64,000 nt of DNA from Rhodamnia argentea (taxonomy: Eukaryota; Streptophyta; Magnoliopsida; Myrtales; Myrtaceae), in assembly GCF_020921035.1 (NCBI RefSeq), contig NC_063155.1:10401001-10465000 (forward strand), read 5' to 3'. The notes under the pieces are model-generated. The model was given only the letters and a program-made list of their open reading frames with translations. It was not told the origin of the DNA and ran no database searches. Each line of letters begins with the position of its first letter. Within the stretch, counting starts at the first letter, position 1. Shown here in pieces: positions 1,490-36,119 of the stretch. The translations under genes and the position numbers were made by a program.

Positions 1490-3709
1490 TCAATACGCTG
1501 ATCGTCCATCACCCTCGACTATCACATCTTTAAAAGCCCCACCACTAGGAATCATAGGCAAGACGTGCTCTTGATGGGGAACAATAACGTCTAGCAAGTA
1601 CGGCCCAGGAGTTTCCAGCATTTTCTGAATTGCGGCTCTAACATCTGCTTTCTTGGTCACACGAGCAGCAGGTATTCCACAAGCTTCAGCAAACTTCAAC
1701 ATGTCTGGGAATATCTCAGACTCTCTTGATGGATCACCTAGGTATGTGTGCGCCCTATTGGCCTTGTAGAACCGATCCTCCCATTGGACAACCATGCCTA
1801 GGTGCTGATTGTTCAACAGAAGAATTTTGACCGGAAGGTTTTCCACTCTGATAGTAGCCAACTCCTGGACATTCATGATAAAGCTTCCATCTCCATCAAT
1901 GTCCACAACTATGGCATCAGGCTTTGCAACAGCAGCTCCAATAGCAGCCGGCAATCCAAAACCCATGGCCCCTAATCCTCCGGATGTCAACCATTGTCGA
2001 GGCCTCCTATACTTGTAAAACTGCGCAGCCCACATCTGATGCTGCCCGACACCTGTACTTATGATTGCGTTTCCATGAGACAACTCATCAAGAACCTGAA
2101 TCGCGTACTGAGGAGGTATGGCATCCCCAAAGGTCTTAAAACTTAATGGGTACTTCTGTTTCTGCTCATCAAGCTCCACCCTCCAAGCGGAAAAGTCAAG
2201 TTTAAGCTTTGATGCTTTCCCTTCTAACAACCTGTTCATCCCTTGCAAGGCCAATTTCACATCCCCACAGACGGAAACATGAGGTTGCTTATTCTTTCCA
2301 ATCTCAGCCGAGTCAATATCAATATGAACGATCTTAGCTCGGCTAGCAAAAGCTTCCAGCTTGCCCGTCACACGATCATCAAAGCGAACTCCAAAGGCGA
2401 GCAACAGATCACTTTTGTCCACTGCATAATTTGCAGATACAGTCCCATGCATCCCAAGCATATGAAGCGACAAATCATCTGTGCAGGGGAACGACCCTAG
2501 ACCCATCAAAGTACTCGCCACAGGGATCCCGGTAAGTTCTACAAACCTAATCAACTCCTCACTCGAATTCAAACACCCACCACCGACATACAAGACTGGC
2601 TTCTTTGATTCAGCTATCAGCCTCACAATCTGTTCCAAGTGCGCCTCCTGAGGCGGCTTAGGCAACCTCGACGTGTATCCCGGCAACCTCACGGGCAGGT
2701 CCCATTTTGGAACCACGAGCTGCTGTTGTATATCCTTAGGCACATCAATGAGAACTGGACCTGGCCTCCCTGAAGTCGCTAGATAGAATGCCTCGCTGAC
2801 TACCCTCGGTATATCTTCCACGTCAAGAACCAGATAATTGTGCTTCGTTATAGACCGGGTGACCTCCACAATGGGGGTCTCTTGAAACGCATCCGTACCA
2901 ATCATTCTTCGGGGCACCTAAAAACCGAAGATATTGTTCTCTCGTCAAAACGGTGGGAAATGAAGGAACTGAAGAGCCGTAGTTTCAAAGCTTACACCCT
3001 ATAGGTCCAGATCTCAAAGACACGAGCTAATGGACTAAATAGGGATAGCTTGTGAGCAATCAAATAAAACAGTAACAGCAGCAAACAAAGCATGGGTGGG
3101 GTCATCGATGGAACCTGGCCCGTGATGGCGACAATGGGGATGCTGTCGAGCATGGCGTCGGCAAGGCCACTAACGAGGTTGGTGGCTCCGGGGCCGGAGG
3201 TGGCGATGCAGACGCCCGGGAGGCCGGAGGCGCGGGCATAGCCCTCGGCGGCGAAAATGCCACCCTGCTCGTGGCGGGGGAGGACGTTCTTGATGATGCG
3301 GGAACGGGTGAGGGCCTGGTGGATCTCCATGGAGGCGCCGCCGGGGTAAGCGAAGACGTTGGTGACGCCCTGGCGCTCCAGGGCCTCCACGAGGACATCG
3401 GAGCCTTTGCGGGGCTCGTCGGGGGCAAATCGGGAAGCGAAGGTCTCGGGGAAGGGTGGAGAGGTGATGGGAGAGGCGGAGGTGGGGGTGGAGGTGGAGG
3501 TGGCGGTGGCGATGGCTTTGGGGGCTTGGTTGGGGAGGGAATTGGAGATGTGGAGAGGAGAGGGGGGAGGACCTGGTGGGTTTGGCGGGGAAAGATAGGA
3601 GCTTGGGGAGGAGGGAGTAAGATTTGGAGGAGACGAAGACGGAGGAGGAGGAAGGAGGAGGAGGGGGGTTGGCATAGATGGCGGAGAAGCTGCTAGCGGC
3701 GGCCGCCAT
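1490..3709 (-). CDS. Acetolactate synthase (acetohydroxyacid synthase) catalytic subunit, chloroplast; two exons
   Basis: ThDP-dependent enzyme joining two pyruvates, or pyruvate and 2-oxobutyrate, in plastid branched-chain amino-acid synthesis. Exon 2 (2917-1490) holds the binding core, including GDGSF, the [13 protein letters not shown] segment, and the IPSGG C-terminal region ending GDGRSAY. Exon 1 ends at 3115 (...AITGQ) and exon 2 resumes VPRRMIG, the invariant family sequence, so a 197-bp GT..AG intron (3114-2918, phase 0) must be removed. Plant ALS genes are normally intronless. The core frame opens at ATG 3675, giving 662 aa with a Pro/Ser-rich leader. However, ATG 3709 has a near-ideal plant start context (AACAATGGC) and a typical leader ([14 protein letters not shown]) but lies in another frame, so a one-base frame change in the transit peptide is likely. 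Residues at the usual herbicide-contact sites look wild type. Family identity is certain; start and functionality are less so. Confidence 0.9.
2918..3114 (-). other. Predicted intron inside ALS (197 bp)
   Basis: The 5' splice site reads CAG|GTTCCA and the 3' site TATCTTCGGTTTTTAG|GTGCC. Removing it restores GQVPRRMIG exactly in frame. The donor is weak beyond the GT, whereas the acceptor has a good pyrimidine-rich tract. Without splicing, the frame runs about 40 codons into the intron and stops, giving a truncated 227-aa product. Confidence 0.75.
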
Positions 3710-3715
3710 TGTTCT

Positions 3716-3915
3716 TGCGGAGGAGGTATTCCGGAGGAGCGAGAGGGAGAGGGAGAGGGAGAGCAAGAGGAGGCGGCGAATGGTCACCATTCAGTCCCCC
3801 CTTTAAATTTTGTGTCCCTGTGTGTGTTGTCACTATCATCGAAATTACGGAATCGCCCCTAGTTTTGTTTGGTAACTGCTAATCGTAATCTCTCCCCCCT
3901 CTCTCTCTCTGACTA
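3716..3915. promoter_or_regulatory. ALS 5' leader and proximal upstream with CT/GA microsatellites
   Basis: On the ALS sense strand the leader is CT-rich (rc of 3742-3772), followed upstream by a second CT run at about 3894-3912. CT-rich leaders are common just upstream of plant housekeeping genes. A TTTAAA at about 3803-3808 is a weak TATA-like candidate; no transcription start can be fixed from sequence alone. Confidence 0.35.
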
Positions 3916-22079: not shown

Positions 22080-23880
22080 TCAGCAGACAAGTGCTCCAGC
22101 AGGTCTGTCCATATCTCCTCCCTGACCTTGTGTCGACACTTGAAGCTCTAAAGGAGTGGATGCAGGATCAAGCTCCCAGCATCCAATAGGAGCATTTGCA
22201 CCTTCTTCACCTGTAATCAACTGAGCAGGGACCTGATGAGAGAACCGGAACAATTCCTCTCTTGGAATTGTCCATAATTTACATGGATCTGGATGCTTTC
22301 CAAACAGAGTCTTCAAGCCACAAACTTTGATCAGTGGAGCAACAGTTACACCATGTTCCTTGCTAGAGTCTTCAATCACTTCGACCATATCGTAGCTGTG
22401 CTTTACATCATTCGGAGTGGACTCGTTCCAATCAGAAGACCAGTTTCTATACAGAGCCCAAACATCTCCCTTCAAGGGATAAATCTGAATTAAGCCCCTC
22501 GAGCTTTTCTTCCACCTCATCACGTGCGAGAAAGCATTAAGGGAGCCATAGACGATAGAGTCACCAATCCATAGATCCCCACAGGTCTTGGCAAATCCAG
22601 ATCCAACCCACCACATAGGGCCAAGTTTTTGGTTGCCTTTGGAACTAAGCCAACTTATGCTCACCTTGAATGGTCTCAATGTTATGACATTGTGGATCAG
22701 AGCATAGTAACGGGGCATCCTATCATCACCATCGTAAGTAGCCCAGACTTTATTATCTGCAAATGAAACCTCTGTCCGATCATTCTCGAAATCATGAAAT
22801 TCTGGGTCTGCAACAATCGTTTGCTTGACGACGAAGTTCTCCGATTCAGATTCAACATTAGAAATGGCACAGGAAGTCTTTTTGATATAAACTCTGCCTA
22901 TACGATCCACAGGCTTCCTATGCTTAACTGCAGCAGTCTTGGTACCATTTGCAGGAGCTTTCTGCTCTTCATGGTACTTCTGCTTCACCTTTCCTTGTGA
23001 AGAATTTAGTCCATCTGTAGGTTCTTTCTCACTACTACACACACCAAGCTTCTCAAAAATTTCCTTCTTTGCTTATGCATCAACATCTTTCGTGTTTCTG
23101 CCAGAGACAAATTCCTCAGACTGTTGAACTGACTAATCACGCTAAAATTGACCCTTCTCCCATCCTCCGGTCGGCCCTTTAGGGATCCAGAGGTCGTACC
23201 AGTGCTAAGTCTTCTGCAATTTGCAAATGACACTTGGCTAGCATCCTCTGTGACTTTCTTGTTCATGCCACCTTTGCCAACCCGACTTTTTTTAATCCCT
23301 TCAGTTTCTAGGGATTTGACATCAGCTGGCATGCCCACTGAACCACTACGAGCTTTCTTAGACTTCTGAATAATCTGTGAGCACTTCTCTCTGACTGCAG
23401 CTGCCTCCTCCTCACAGCCCCTCCTCCGATGCCGAACTACAGGCTCAAGCACACCTGAGGGAGGATAATGTGATGCAGGTGCGGGGGCAGCTTTATCACC
23501 TGCAAATTTGGTTAATGTGTCATATGAAGAAGTGACCTTTTCCGGCAAATGAATACCAGAGGAGCTTGTTGAACCTTATTGTTGGGAGAAATCTGCCTTC
23601 CAACTTTATCAGGATATGGTTGTGCTTCAGAGAAAGCCTTTGAATTAGATGTACTATTGCCATCTATTAGTGGAGGTGGAATCTCAATTGCAACATAGGG
23701 TTTACGGCAGCTGGGACTCCGGCAACGAAGTCGCTTGCTTAAGTAACATATTAAGTATTCGAACTTCATTTGGCAAGCACTACACTGTGTCCAAAATGAC
23801 GTCTTGATAGGACAAGAAGGAGCTGGAGCACAATTCGCACTCTCACGATCCGTAGTGTTGAAATTCTTATTGCATTCCAT
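22080..23880 (-). pseudogene. Broken J-less DnaJ/DUF3444 gene, copy 2
   Basis: Retains the same start (MECNK at 23,880) as the intact copy, but then jumps directly to the region just before the zinc-binding segment (NTTDRESANCAPA...FWTQC). The J domain and following linker, about 190 codons, are missing. The junction falls where the intact gene has TGCAACA at both places (codons 3-5 and about 197-199), suggesting a microhomology deletion. Downstream, the frame changes twice (near 23.53 and 23.03 kb). The DUF3444 part from 23,042 to 22,080 is a continuous 320-codon frame, ending prematurely relative to the intact tail. Whether any transcript is made is unknown; as a co-chaperone it is dead. 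Confidence 0.85.
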
Positions 23881-31963: not shown

Positions 31964-34417
31964 TCATGACTGCTTCCCTTTTAGTTTGCGCTTGTACACT
32001 AGCATCACTTCTTCCTTGGCTTTCATCCCCTTCACCGTAACACTGGCCGTACCGTCCACTTTGGCTTCCAACCCTCTGCCAGTAGTTGTTACCACCTGAA
32101 GAAGTTCCAGAGGTGTGGATGCAGGATCAAGCTCCCAGCATCCTTTAGGAGCATTTGCACCTTCTTCACCTGTAAGCAAGTGAGCAGGGACCTGATGAGA
32201 GAACCGAAACATTTCCTCCCTTGGAACCGTCCATAATTTCCCAGGATCTGGATGCTTCTGAAACACAGTCTTGAAGCCACAAACTTTGATGAGTGGAGCA
32301 ACAGTAACACCAAGCTCATCGCTGTAATCTTCGATCACTTCAACCATATCATAGCTGTGTATTATCTCATCTGGAGTTAACTCATTCCAATCAGAAGACC
32401 AGTTCCTATATAGAGCCCAAACATCTCCCTTCAAGGGATAAATGTGAATTAAGCCCCTTGCGCCTTTTGTCCACTTCATCCTATGCGAGAAAGCATTAAG
32501 GGAGTTATCAACAACAGATTTCCCTATTCGCAGATACCCACAGGTCTTGGCGAAGCCAGATCCAACCCAACACGTAGGGCCAAGTTCTTGGTTAGTTTTG
32601 GAACTAAGCCAACTTATGCGCATCTTGAATGGTTTCAATGACATGACAGTGTGGATCAGAGCGTAGTAACGGGGCATCCCATCATCATCATCATAAGCAG
32701 CCCAGACTTGATTATCAGCAAATGAATCCTCTGTCCGATCCTTGTCAAAATTATAAAAATCAGGGTCTGTAACGACCATTTGCATAGGGACAAAGTTCTC
32801 TGCTTCAGATTTGATATTGGAAATAGAATGGGAAGTCTTTTCCATCTGAACTCTGTCCTTACCATCCACGGGCTCACTATGCTTAACAGGAGCGGTCTTA
32901 GCACCACTCGCGGGAGCCTTCTGCACTTTCCCATACTTCAGCTTGACCTCCCCTTGCAAAGAATTTCGTCCATTTGAAGGTTCTTTCTCAACTCTCCATT
33001 CATCAAGCTTCTTACGAATATCTGTTTTGGCTTTATGTATCAGCATATTTCGCAATTCTAGGAGAGAAACATCCCTCAAGCCGTTATACCGATTAATTAA
33101 ACTGAAATTAACCCTCCCCCGATCCAGCGATCCCTTTTGAAGTCCAGGCGTAGTTCCTGTTACGACTCCTCTACTATTTGCAAATGCTACCTGACCTGCA
33201 CCCTCTGAGACTTTCTTATTTATGCCGCCTTCATCAACTTTCCTTTTCTCAATCCGATCAGTTTCTAGGGAATTGGCATCAGCCGACATGCTCACTGAAT
33301 CACTTCGAGCCTTCTTAGACATTTGAATCCTCTCACCGTACTCCTCTTGGACAGCAGCTGCCACTCCGCGGCCTCTCTTCCGGTGCCGAAATAGAGGCTC
33401 AAACACACCTGAAGCTTGAGGAGCATATGATGCAGGTGCCGGGGCACTATTATCACTTGCGAATTTGGGTAATGTGCCATAGGATGAAGCAAACTGCGGC
33501 GGCAAGTGAATACCAGAGAAGCTGGTTGAACGTGCATTTGGGGCAGGAGATGCATGCCCATGATTTCTCATTCGACAAGGATACTGTTGTGCTTCAAAGA
33601 AAGCCTGCGAATCAGATGACCTATGTCCATCTACTGGTGGAGGTGGAATCTCGTTGGCCACAAAGGGTTTACGGCAGCCGGGGCTGGGGCAGAGAATCTG
33701 CTGATTTAGGTAGCGAATCAGGTATTCATACTTCATTCGGCAACCACCGCACTGTGTCCAAAATGATGTCCGAGGAGAGGCTGAAGCATAATTAGCGTCA
33801 GCAGCACTCTTCCAGTCCCTAGTGTTGCAATCCCGGTGGGGATAAGACGAATTGCGAACCACATAAGCAGCACTGCCCCTCCAACTCCCACCATTCGTAT
33901 TCTGATAAGGAGAAGTCGAAGCACTCCTCCAATCGCCCGCATTGTCGTTCTGATGCGTACCTGGAAAACTGTGAAATCCATTCTGATGGCCCGGCGTCGG
34001 GAATTTCCCATTGCGGACCCTCGAGTTGCGCTTCAGGTCATACGCGTATCTCTTCGCTCTATCGGACAGCAAGCTCCAGGCCTCGGAGAGAATCTTGAAA
34101 GCGCCATCGGCGCCCACCGCTTTGTTCTTGTCGGGATGAAGAAGAAGCGCGAGCTTCCTATAACTCCTCCGGATCGCGTCGTCATCGGCGGAAGGATCGA
34201 CGCCGAGGATTCCGTACCAATCCGCCTCCCCGTTGATCTTCTTCTGGGCCGACACGTAGACGTCGAGAGTCGCCACGAGCTGAGAAAGGCCGTCGAGGCC
34301 GGCGTACAGACTCCTGGCCTTGACGGCGAACTTGTGGGCGCCATGGACGTCCGACTCCATCAACTTCTTCTCGGCGATCTCCTTCGCCCGGAGAGCCTCC
34401 TCCTTGTTGCATTCCAT
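31964..34417 (-). CDS. DnaJ domain protein with C-terminal DUF3444 (intact copy)
   Basis: Intronless 817-aa protein. The J domain (about 66-131) starts DWYGILGVDPSADDDAIR and keeps the HPD tripeptide (94-96) needed to stimulate Hsp70 ATPase. An N-terminal helical region (MECNKEEALRAKEIAEKKL) is typical of plant members. A Gly/Ser/Asn-rich linker leads to a putative zinc site with Cys 223, 226, 243 and 248 (FWTQCGGCRMKYEYL...CPSPGC). After a basic, low-complexity middle comes DUF3444 (about 545-760), with VWAAYDDDDGMPRYYALI, WVGSGFAKTCG and GDVWALYRNWSSDW. The likely role is a nuclear or cytosolic Hsp70 co-chaperone; the client is unknown. It is the only one of three local copies with an open frame, and the transporter partner follows 1.7 kb upstream of its ATG. 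Confidence 0.95.
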   Translation of the reverse strand: MECNKEEALRAKEIAEKKLMESDVHGAHKFAVKARSLYAGLDGLSQLVATLDVYVSAQKKINGEADWYGILGVDPSADDDAIRRSYRKLALLLHPDKNKAVGADGAFKILSEAWSLLSDRAKRYAYDLKRNSRVRNGKFPTPGHQNGFHSFPGTHQNDNAGDWRSASTSPYQNTNGGSWRGSAAYVVRNSSYPHRDCNTRDWKSAADANYASASPRTSFWTQCGGCRMKYEYLIRYLNQQILCPSPGCRKPFVANEIPPPPVDGHRSSDSQAFFEAQQYPCRMRNHGHASPAPNARSTSFSGIHLPPQFASSYGTLPKFASDNSAPAPASYAPQASGVFEPLFRHRKRGRGVAAAVQEEYGERIQMSKKARSDSVSMSADANSLETDRIEKRKVDEGGINKKVSEGAGQVAFANSRGVVTGTTPGLQKGSLDRGRVNFSLINRYNGLRDVSLLELRNMLIHKAKTDIRKKLDEWRVEKEPSNGRNSLQGEVKLKYGKVQKAPASGAKTAPVKHSEPVDGKDRVQMEKTSHSISNIKSEAENFVPMQMVVTDPDFYNFDKDRTEDSFADNQVWAAYDDDDGMPRYYALIHTVMSLKPFKMRISWLSSKTNQELGPTCWVGSGFAKTCGYLRIGKSVVDNSLNAFSHRMKWTKGARGLIHIYPLKGDVWALYRNWSSDWNELTPDEIIHSYDMVEVIEDYSDELGVTVAPLIKVCGFKTVFQKHPDPGKLWTVPREEMFRFSHQVPAHLLTGEEGANAPKGCWELDPASTPLELLQVVTTTGRGLEAKVDGTASVTVKGMKAKEEVMLVYKRKLKGKQS

Positions 34418-36119
34418 CTCTCATCTCAGCGGGGGAGGTGCCCTAAGACATTAGCAGATTCTTCTTCCTCTTTATGCGACCCTTAAATATTATTAAAATA
34501 AAATAAAATAAACCAATTTATTAGCTAAAAGCAGACTCTTAATAATAGAAATATAAGAATAAGTTTCAACATAGTGCCAGATCCATTTCTTGCAACATAC
34601 AATCCTTAAAATACTCAAAACATCATTCATTTCACTTCCCAGGCATTGGTGTGTTCTCAAAGATCACATACGCGAATGTCTGTTGTTTCATCCTTATAAG
34701 ATCATCTCACCCGTTATCTTGATTTACCGAGCAGGTCATGACCCATCTTCCCCTCGATGTTCGGCCTTAAATGCACGGTACATGTTTTGTCCAATTACCA
34801 CTTACTGTCGTCCTAACAGGCGAGCCAGCGATTGATGCGATCAATCGCCCCCGGAGTTGCCAGCAAGAAAATGCCGGACACGACTAGGACAGAACAGCTC
34901 GGTTGCAGATGAGCAACTCCCTGAGCAGGACATAAAAGATGGATGGTGGTGCCTCTTCATAATCATCCTGGAACCTACATAAGCGAACGCTACAACTAAT
35001 GTCCACCAGAATCTGTCGTTCAGGCAGGTTACCACATCAGTTGTTGCTAATAATTATGCACAGACAGCAGATAGCATTGTCGATTGAGTACTAATTGGGT
35101 CAAGTAATTTAGTGTAGAATGTGTGTGTTTTGCCGGTATAATCCGACCGCTCTTCTCGTTAATAACTCGAACATAATAACATGGGTTGACTCCTTTTTAT
35201 CAGTTTGGCAACAGAGGAGACATGTGAAGTCCTGAAGCATGAAAGGATCGGATTTTTTTAGTGAGTTATAGTCTTCGGATGCTGTCATCAGTGCAACTTC
35301 CAGCCGGACAACAGCTGATCAGGAGTTAGATGTTATAGATGATTTTGCTAGCAATTTGAGCACTTGAACTGTCATCTGAAGCTTTTGACAATACAAAAGA
35401 TCCAAAATCTGACTTCCAATGGATAATGCAAGTACCGTTAATTGAAGCATAAGCTTCAGGCGACGCAACAGGCCGTCCACCCATGTTCCGTCCTAAGATA
35501 TTTGCGGAAACGCTTGTCCTGTAAATCTCTCAAAAGTAAATTGTAGGTTGAAGCAGCAACTTTGTTTGATGGGAAGCAAGCAGTTATGAGATCAATCACA
35601 GCACCAAAAAATCGAGACCTGGCGCATTCAGTGAAACATTTGAAGTTCCTGCAGACTCATCTGCCTCTAACATCTACTGTTTAGATAAAAGCAACCACGA
35701 AACCGAGAAAAGAAACAAAAGCTATGAAAAGGCACGGATCAGAAATTAAAGGAGAATTTAACAAGGTATCTATTTTCCAAGAAGATTCAGAGGAGTCTCC
35801 TGTTGCAGATAAAAGGGCAGAAAATAATGCTTCAACTTACGTTCTAGTCCATGAACTAATTAGCGATTCTTATTGATCTCAAAAGAATATTTTATTACAA
35901 TCCAAACCAAGCAAATCTCAGCCCAATGTGAGCCGAAAGCCTCAGAAGTTCAAAGAGCTGAAAAAAAAATGTACTTGGAACAGCAAGGTCTGTGGCAGAA
36001 CCATGAATCGTAACGATGCATACGCACTTGAACTGACAACTCCAGCTTTCTTCTATCCATCAACGAAGAACATGAACCCTCCACAAAAATAAGTGAGAGT
36101 GGCCAAGAAATGGACAAAC
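34418..36119. other. Intergenic region between J-protein and transporter
   Basis: Contains the J-protein 5' region (an AT-rich AAATAAAATAAAATAAA tract at about 34,492-34,510) and, at the right, the transporter 3' UTR (about 35,870-36,119; homologous to 28,860-28,990). Open frames at 34,590-34,835 and 34,841-35,035 have no recognisable content. Confidence 0.5.

Follow-up and report, generated by a model that had tools for sequence, protein, structure and literature searches.

Acetolactate synthase (ALS) is the enzyme target of many weedkillers, and its gene is widely treated as intronless and frequently chosen for PCR, sequencing and base editing near codon 197. In the 64,000-nucleotide stretch of the Rhodamnia argentea genome analyzed here (the window, C6:10401001-10465000), an ALS gene is divided by a 197-bp interval, which raises the question of whether this copy has been broken or whether the gene itself is split. 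Taken together, the sequence evidence points, with a probability of about 0.94, to a genuine U2-type spliceosomal intron at window positions 2918-3114 (minus strand), which would be removed constitutively from a functional plastid-type ALS gene. According to this reading, the intron would already have stood at Q195/V196 before an old, probably whole-genome, duplication that produced the copies on contigs C6 and C7, and would have been carried into a later, now decayed, DNA-level duplicate on C10.

The interval extends on the minus strand from window position 3114 down to 2918, lies in phase 0 and splits ITGQ from VPRRMIG in ALS. A sequence-only reading of the window had described two open frames joined exactly by a 197-bp GT..AG interval, and its coordinates proved exact. 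Read along the minus strand, ATCACGGGCCAG is followed by GTTCCA...GGTTTTTAG and then by GTGCCCCGAAGA; the flanks of the GTTCCA...TTTTTAG interval are GCCATCACGGGCCAG before it and GTGCCCCGAAGAATGATTGG after it. The gene is composed of the following parts (window positions):

3115..3675, minus strand: ALS exon 1, 187 codons that begin with the in-frame ATG at 3675 and end in VAITGQ, with the TPP_enzyme_N domain (PF02776)
2918..3114, minus strand: predicted ALS intron, 197 bp, GT..AG, phase 0, with donor CAG/GTTCCA at 3114 and acceptor TTTTTAG/GTG ending at 2918
2944..2948, minus strand: candidate branch site TTGAC, located 31 nt upstream of the acceptor end of the intron, a simple yTnAy match and as such weak evidence
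2960-2964, minus strand: other branch-site candidate TTCAT, a yTnAy match
1490..2917, minus strand: ALS exon 2, an open frame of 475 codons plus stop, 940 bits against the plant ALS chain 6u9h

Both sides of the interval encode recognizable parts of the enzyme. The upstream frame matches TPP_enzyme_N (PF02776) with an E-value of 5e-34 over profile positions 2-99 of 119, and the downstream frame matches TPP_enzyme_M (PF00205, E 2.5e-48) and TPP_enzyme_C (PF02775, E 1.8e-52). Once the C6 exons are joined, all three TPP-enzyme domains (N, M and C) are present, and the resulting protein of 662 aa scores 698.4 bits against TIGR00118 (biosynthetic-type ALS large subunit), above the cut-off of 538.35. 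Exon 2 of C6 is identical at 405 of 475 positions to chain 6u9h, which we take to be the Arabidopsis ALS enzyme. All seven residues compared (P197, A205, D376, R377, W574, S653 and G654) are identical among C6, C7 and the Arabidopsis chain; the comparison covers the exon 2 positions of this list of conserved residues (Arabidopsis numbering), to which residue 122, in exon 1, also belongs. The junction stands directly before V196 and hence one codon ahead of P197, in the Arabidopsis numbering, which is consistent with the residues compared here. The join had earlier been placed two codons from this conserved Pro; its closeness is borne out, and the distance has to be corrected to one codon.

The interval has the GT..AG ends and the open, correctly phased flanking exons of a U2-type spliceosomal intron, and the exon boundary CAG/GTG is a protosplice-type site. 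An unspliced C6 product would gain 40 extra codons after GQ before reaching a stop, in agreement with the truncation anticipated from the sequence, and, as 197 is not divisible by 3, retention also loses the frame. The T content is 38% in the C6 intron and 40% in the C7 intron, with in-frame stops in both, and yTnAy matches occur at -31 and -47 in the former and at -50 in the latter, the motif being short and common.

The assembly searched for further copies comprises 346,658,060 bases in 74 contigs; the telomere repeat TTTAGGG is abundant in it, and RuBisCO large-chain frames occur on contigs C43, C23 and C61, the C23 and C61 copies being split between frames, with a stop. The plastid rbcL matched rubisco chains in the PDB that single out no clade. 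The exon-2 protein gave six matches in the genome, namely full-length C6 and C7, three fragments on C10 and, on C2, a distant relative (28%), and the exon-1 protein gave nine, namely C6, C7, C10 and six others at 30-32%. C7 carries an intact paralogue in which 270 bp (GTATCT...TTTGTAG) lie between the exons, at the same codon boundary as in C6, and both intact copies read CAG/GT..AG/GTG. The C10 copy, whose matches fall between 19865468 and 19867057 (region C10:19863501-19869500), is decayed: it carries stops and frame changes and is 3'-truncated, and its 151-bp interval, again at the codon boundary used in C6, has altered junctions (CAC/GTTACA, with CAC replacing CAG, and an acceptor junction one base shorter). 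At the DNA level, one long match links it to window positions 1745-3650 and five short ones lie elsewhere, and no long similarity between C10 and the window was detected outside the ALS gene. Since the C10 copy retains the intron, it is a DNA-level duplicate; an origin as a retrocopy or processed pseudogene was ruled out on this ground.

An interval is therefore found at one and the same codon boundary in all three ALS loci detected. Interruption of this boundary in C7 and C10 as well excludes chance, and related copies split at the same spot indicate a gene that is split rather than broken. When intron interiors were compared, the observed score was reached by 0 of 200 shuffles for C6-C10 (related), 11 of 200 for C6-C7 (weak) and 77 of 200 for C7-C10 (not detectable), the weak or undetectable likeness involving C7 being expected given long divergence; across the three loci, a shared position is thus combined with a diverged interior, as in a U2-type intron. 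Searching the 346.7-Mb assembly with a degenerate pattern that encodes GQVPRRMIG across an uninterrupted junction gave 0 matches, and a control pattern from the exon-2 boundary matched C6 and C7 only in the whole genome; considering that the junction pattern permits no amino-acid change, a diverged uninterrupted copy is excluded by the protein searches only. The second, uninterrupted ALS locus that the sequence-only reading had allowed for was accordingly found neither by the junction pattern nor by the protein searches of the genome.

The relationship between the two intact copies extends beyond the ALS gene. When 94 kb surrounding the C6 locus were compared with 70 kb surrounding the C7 locus, four gene blocks proved collinear, with order and orientation preserved:

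Block 1: ALS, in the C6-C7 comparison
Block 2: window 7.2-7.6 kb, in the C6-C7 comparison
Block 3: window 12.5-13.1 kb, a histone-fold (CBF/NF-Y type) gene
Block 4: window 49.7-51.9 kb, including a phosphoesterase-family gene

Four weaker C6-C7 DNA matches (72-81% over 72-323 bases) lie off the collinear line. This collinearity would fit a whole-genome or large segmental duplication, and the event that produced C6 and C7 was probably a duplication of the whole genome. Between the two copies, exon 2 shows dS 1.33 and dN 0.072 (ratio 0.054), the last 125 codons of exon 1 (window 3115-3489) show dS 0.47 and dN 0.087, and the ratio over all 600 codons compared is 0.073; these are Nei-Gojobori estimates without composition-bias correction, and dS is near saturation and therefore means "old" rather than a date. 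Composition bias or gene conversion could explain why dS is lower in exon 1 than in exon 2. In six other syntenic C6-C7 frames, chosen from tblastn hits and compared over 34 to 334 codons, dS ranges from 0.57 to 2.04. Of the 475 positions of exon 2, 14 differ from the Arabidopsis chain in C6 only, 35 in C7 only and 56 in both, and the smaller number of private changes in C6 implies that the window copy is not undergoing decay in exon 2. Judged from these substitution patterns, selection on both intact copies is purifying. The collinearity of C6 and C7, combined with an exon 2 dS of about 1.3 and a dN of 0.07, indicates that the intron predates the old duplication and that both copies are constrained. 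The course of events would then be that the intron occupied the CAG/GTG boundary (Q195/V196) before this duplication gave rise to the C6 and C7 copies, and that a later DNA-level duplicate on C10 inherited it and subsequently decayed; splicing would restore the GQVPRRMIG motif, and retention would truncate the enzyme.

Several other explanations deserve consideration, beginning with those that concern the origin of the interval. The 197 bp might be a recent insertion, such as a MITE, that inactivated C6 while an uninterrupted ALS copy elsewhere does the work, as the sequence-only reading had entertained; the weak donor and the frame broken without removal would agree with this. However, an intact C7 copy interrupted at the same place contradicts it, the position is common to the three ALS loci found, no uninterrupted junction was found in the genome, and purifying selection, together with fewer private changes in exon 2 of C6 than of C7, argues against inactivation, leaving this explanation extremely improbable. 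Nor does the interval resemble a mobile element: searched against the genome, the C6 intron matched itself alone and the C7 intron likewise gave a single match, and no direct or inverted repeats were found around the C6 and C7 introns (271 and 351 bases; seed 7, length 10). With no terminal repeats and no second genomic copy, a MITE or transposon insertion was rejected, within the limit that the genome search by intron also missed the diverged C10 intron, so that old relatives could escape it. In addition, comparison of the C6 intron with window 4001-64000 gave a score of 29, inside the range of 30 shuffles (24 to 32), and no Rfam match (non-coding RNA) was obtained at the gathering score over 2700-3900. 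Also quite unlikely is an origin of the intron in which a piece of coding sequence with AGGT in it was duplicated in tandem, a route that would account for a GTTCCA donor resembling GTGCCC. AGGT does stand at both ends in C6, and GTTCC is close to GTGCC, but the C7 donor is GTATCT, and when each intron was compared with its own CDS on both strands, the score was reached by 51 of 200 mononucleotide shuffles in the case of C6 and by 30 of 200 in that of C7, although an old event could have decayed past detection. The likeness of the donor to the GQVP coding sequence, previously offered as a trace of the intron's origin, does not occur in C7 and is best attributed to chance. The intron may represent a gain in this lineage or a loss elsewhere.

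Other explanations accept the intron and concern how well the window copy functions. Two features upstream of the enzyme domains are relevant here:

3562..3567, minus strand: run of six C in the transit-peptide region, one base more than in C7 and C10 in the alignment
3707..3709, minus strand: upstream ATG of a MAAAASS-type transit-peptide frame, out of frame with the enzyme here

The start corresponding to the ATG at 3709 is in frame in C7 (MAAAAVTT...) and in the C10 pseudogene (a MAAAS start, with enzyme exon 1). In C6, the extra base in the C-run puts the ATG at 3709 out of frame, which makes the C6 start uncertain; the assembly may have miscounted the run, translation may begin at another ATG, or the copy may be a young null allele. 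The last of these, in which the intron is real and C6 is a young loss-of-function allele whose upstream start was thrown out of frame by one base in the transit region, draws on the lack of the extra base in C7 and C10 and on the MAAAS start of C10, in frame with exon 1. It is nevertheless unlikely, considering that translation from ATG 3675, which is in frame, would yield a protein of 662 aa whose leader is P/S-rich, that coding constraint is strong, and that a miscount in a homopolymer of six bases is a plausible assembly error. The donor of the C6 intron, GTTCCA, is weak: on general splice-site frequencies it scores 0.03 bits, whereas the C7 donor reaches 4.07 and the consensus 7.77, and the one other GT above the listing threshold in the 600 bases around the C6 intron, situated in exon 2, exceeds it with 0.85. 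Retention of this intron could in principle serve as a regulatory switch that tunes C6 ALS output relative to C7, in keeping with a donor far from the consensus where C7 has GTATCT and with the truncated protein that retention yields. Such a role is very unlikely, however, in view of the general frequencies behind the donor scores and of the fact that weak donors occur in constitutive introns too. Constitutive splicing would be the simplest reading, with partial retention or inefficient splicing through the weak C6 donor a possibility, and we infer that splicing of the C6 intron occurs and is efficient. The points that count against an old, constitutively spliced intron in a functional gene are the weak C6 donor, the extra base in the transit region, a dS near saturation and the weak C6-C7 likeness of the intron interiors.

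Base composition also changes within the gene. GC3 drops at the intron from 0.86 to 0.48 in C6 and from 0.76 to 0.42 in C7, and the best change point falls at codon 127 (C6) and 126 (C7), compared with an intron at codon 125; 0 of 1000 shuffles were as strong, the shuffles being scanned at every third position and the real data at every position. However, an uninterrupted DnaJ-DUF3444 frame used as a control (window 31967-34420, minus strand, 817-818 codons) has a step of its own at codon 143, where GC3 goes from 0.80 down to 0.42, with 0 of 500 shuffles as strong. Among the five control frames, this one and the histone-fold gene gave 0 of 500, and the other three gave 7, 30 and 93 of 500. Considering that a nearby uninterrupted frame shows a similar fall, the step in ALS does not point specifically to an intron, and its use as independent proof of an old intron was dropped. 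A GC-rich 5' coding end without an intron thus occurs in the window. The DnaJ-DUF3444 frame is one of two DUF3444-domain frames there (22083-23072 and 31967-34420, both minus strand), which share an orientation and are separated by about 9 kb.

The structure described here has practical consequences, because primers or guides drawn from the coding sequence over Q195-P197 would, in this lineage, span the intron. Since the intron is old and its site is defined, its presence or absence in relatives would make a clean gain-or-loss case, and the same relatives would test whether a new intron alters downstream base composition. A more far-reaching proposal is that a lineage of flowering plants gained an intron in an otherwise intronless ALS before an old genome duplication, at a CAG/GT protosplice site that precedes the herbicide-contact proline by one codon, that all functional ALS transcripts there need splicing, and that the output of the window copy, compared with that of C7, is set by its weak donor; in its entirety, this proposal is speculative and probably incorrect. 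The intron is of an ordinary kind and may well be present in gene models already public for the species; the gene structure is the unusual part. Beyond this genome, no plant ALS appeared among GTDB genomes in the best 80 of 593 candidates, those 80 being bacterial or archaeal by title, or in viral contigs, where 4 loci matched at 44-47%, or in plasmids, where exon 2 searched as DNA gave 17 records, all bacterial.

In the open-licence literature, judged mostly by title, no report was found of an intron at Q195/V196 in an angiosperm catalytic ALS. The literature consulted calls the ALS genes of rice (LOC_Os02g30630), Echinochloa, and Alopecurus and Poaceae, as well as Brassica AHAS2 and the wheat ALS catalytic subunits (ALS1), intronless, which upholds the earlier statement that plant ALS genes generally lack introns. 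In A. palmeri, three of the four "ApALS" genes have 5-7 introns according to PMC12526137; these genes may not be catalytic subunits. A title (Funke et al. 1999) in the reference list of PMC3729371 refers to recent insertion of introns in ALS of Chlamydomonas reinhardtii and Volvox carteri, and intron-associated composition steps in plant genes are treated in Ressayre et al. 2015 (PMC4684703). The C6 and C7 copies resemble the genes of the latter study in the sharp GC3 fall at the intron, but, unlike those intron-associated steps, a fall of similar size also occurs in a long uninterrupted frame of the window. Judged by that title, the Chlamydomonas reinhardtii and Volvox carteri genes share with the present ones the condition of a green-lineage nuclear ALS with introns. 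The window gene is like the ALS/AHAS genes of rice, Brassica, Echinochloa, Alopecurus and wheat in its N, M and C TPP domains, in the GQVPRRMIG motif once the exons are joined and in its exon 2 identity to the Arabidopsis chain (405/475); unlike these genes, which the literature consulted calls intronless, the copies in this genome have one interval, at Q195/V196.
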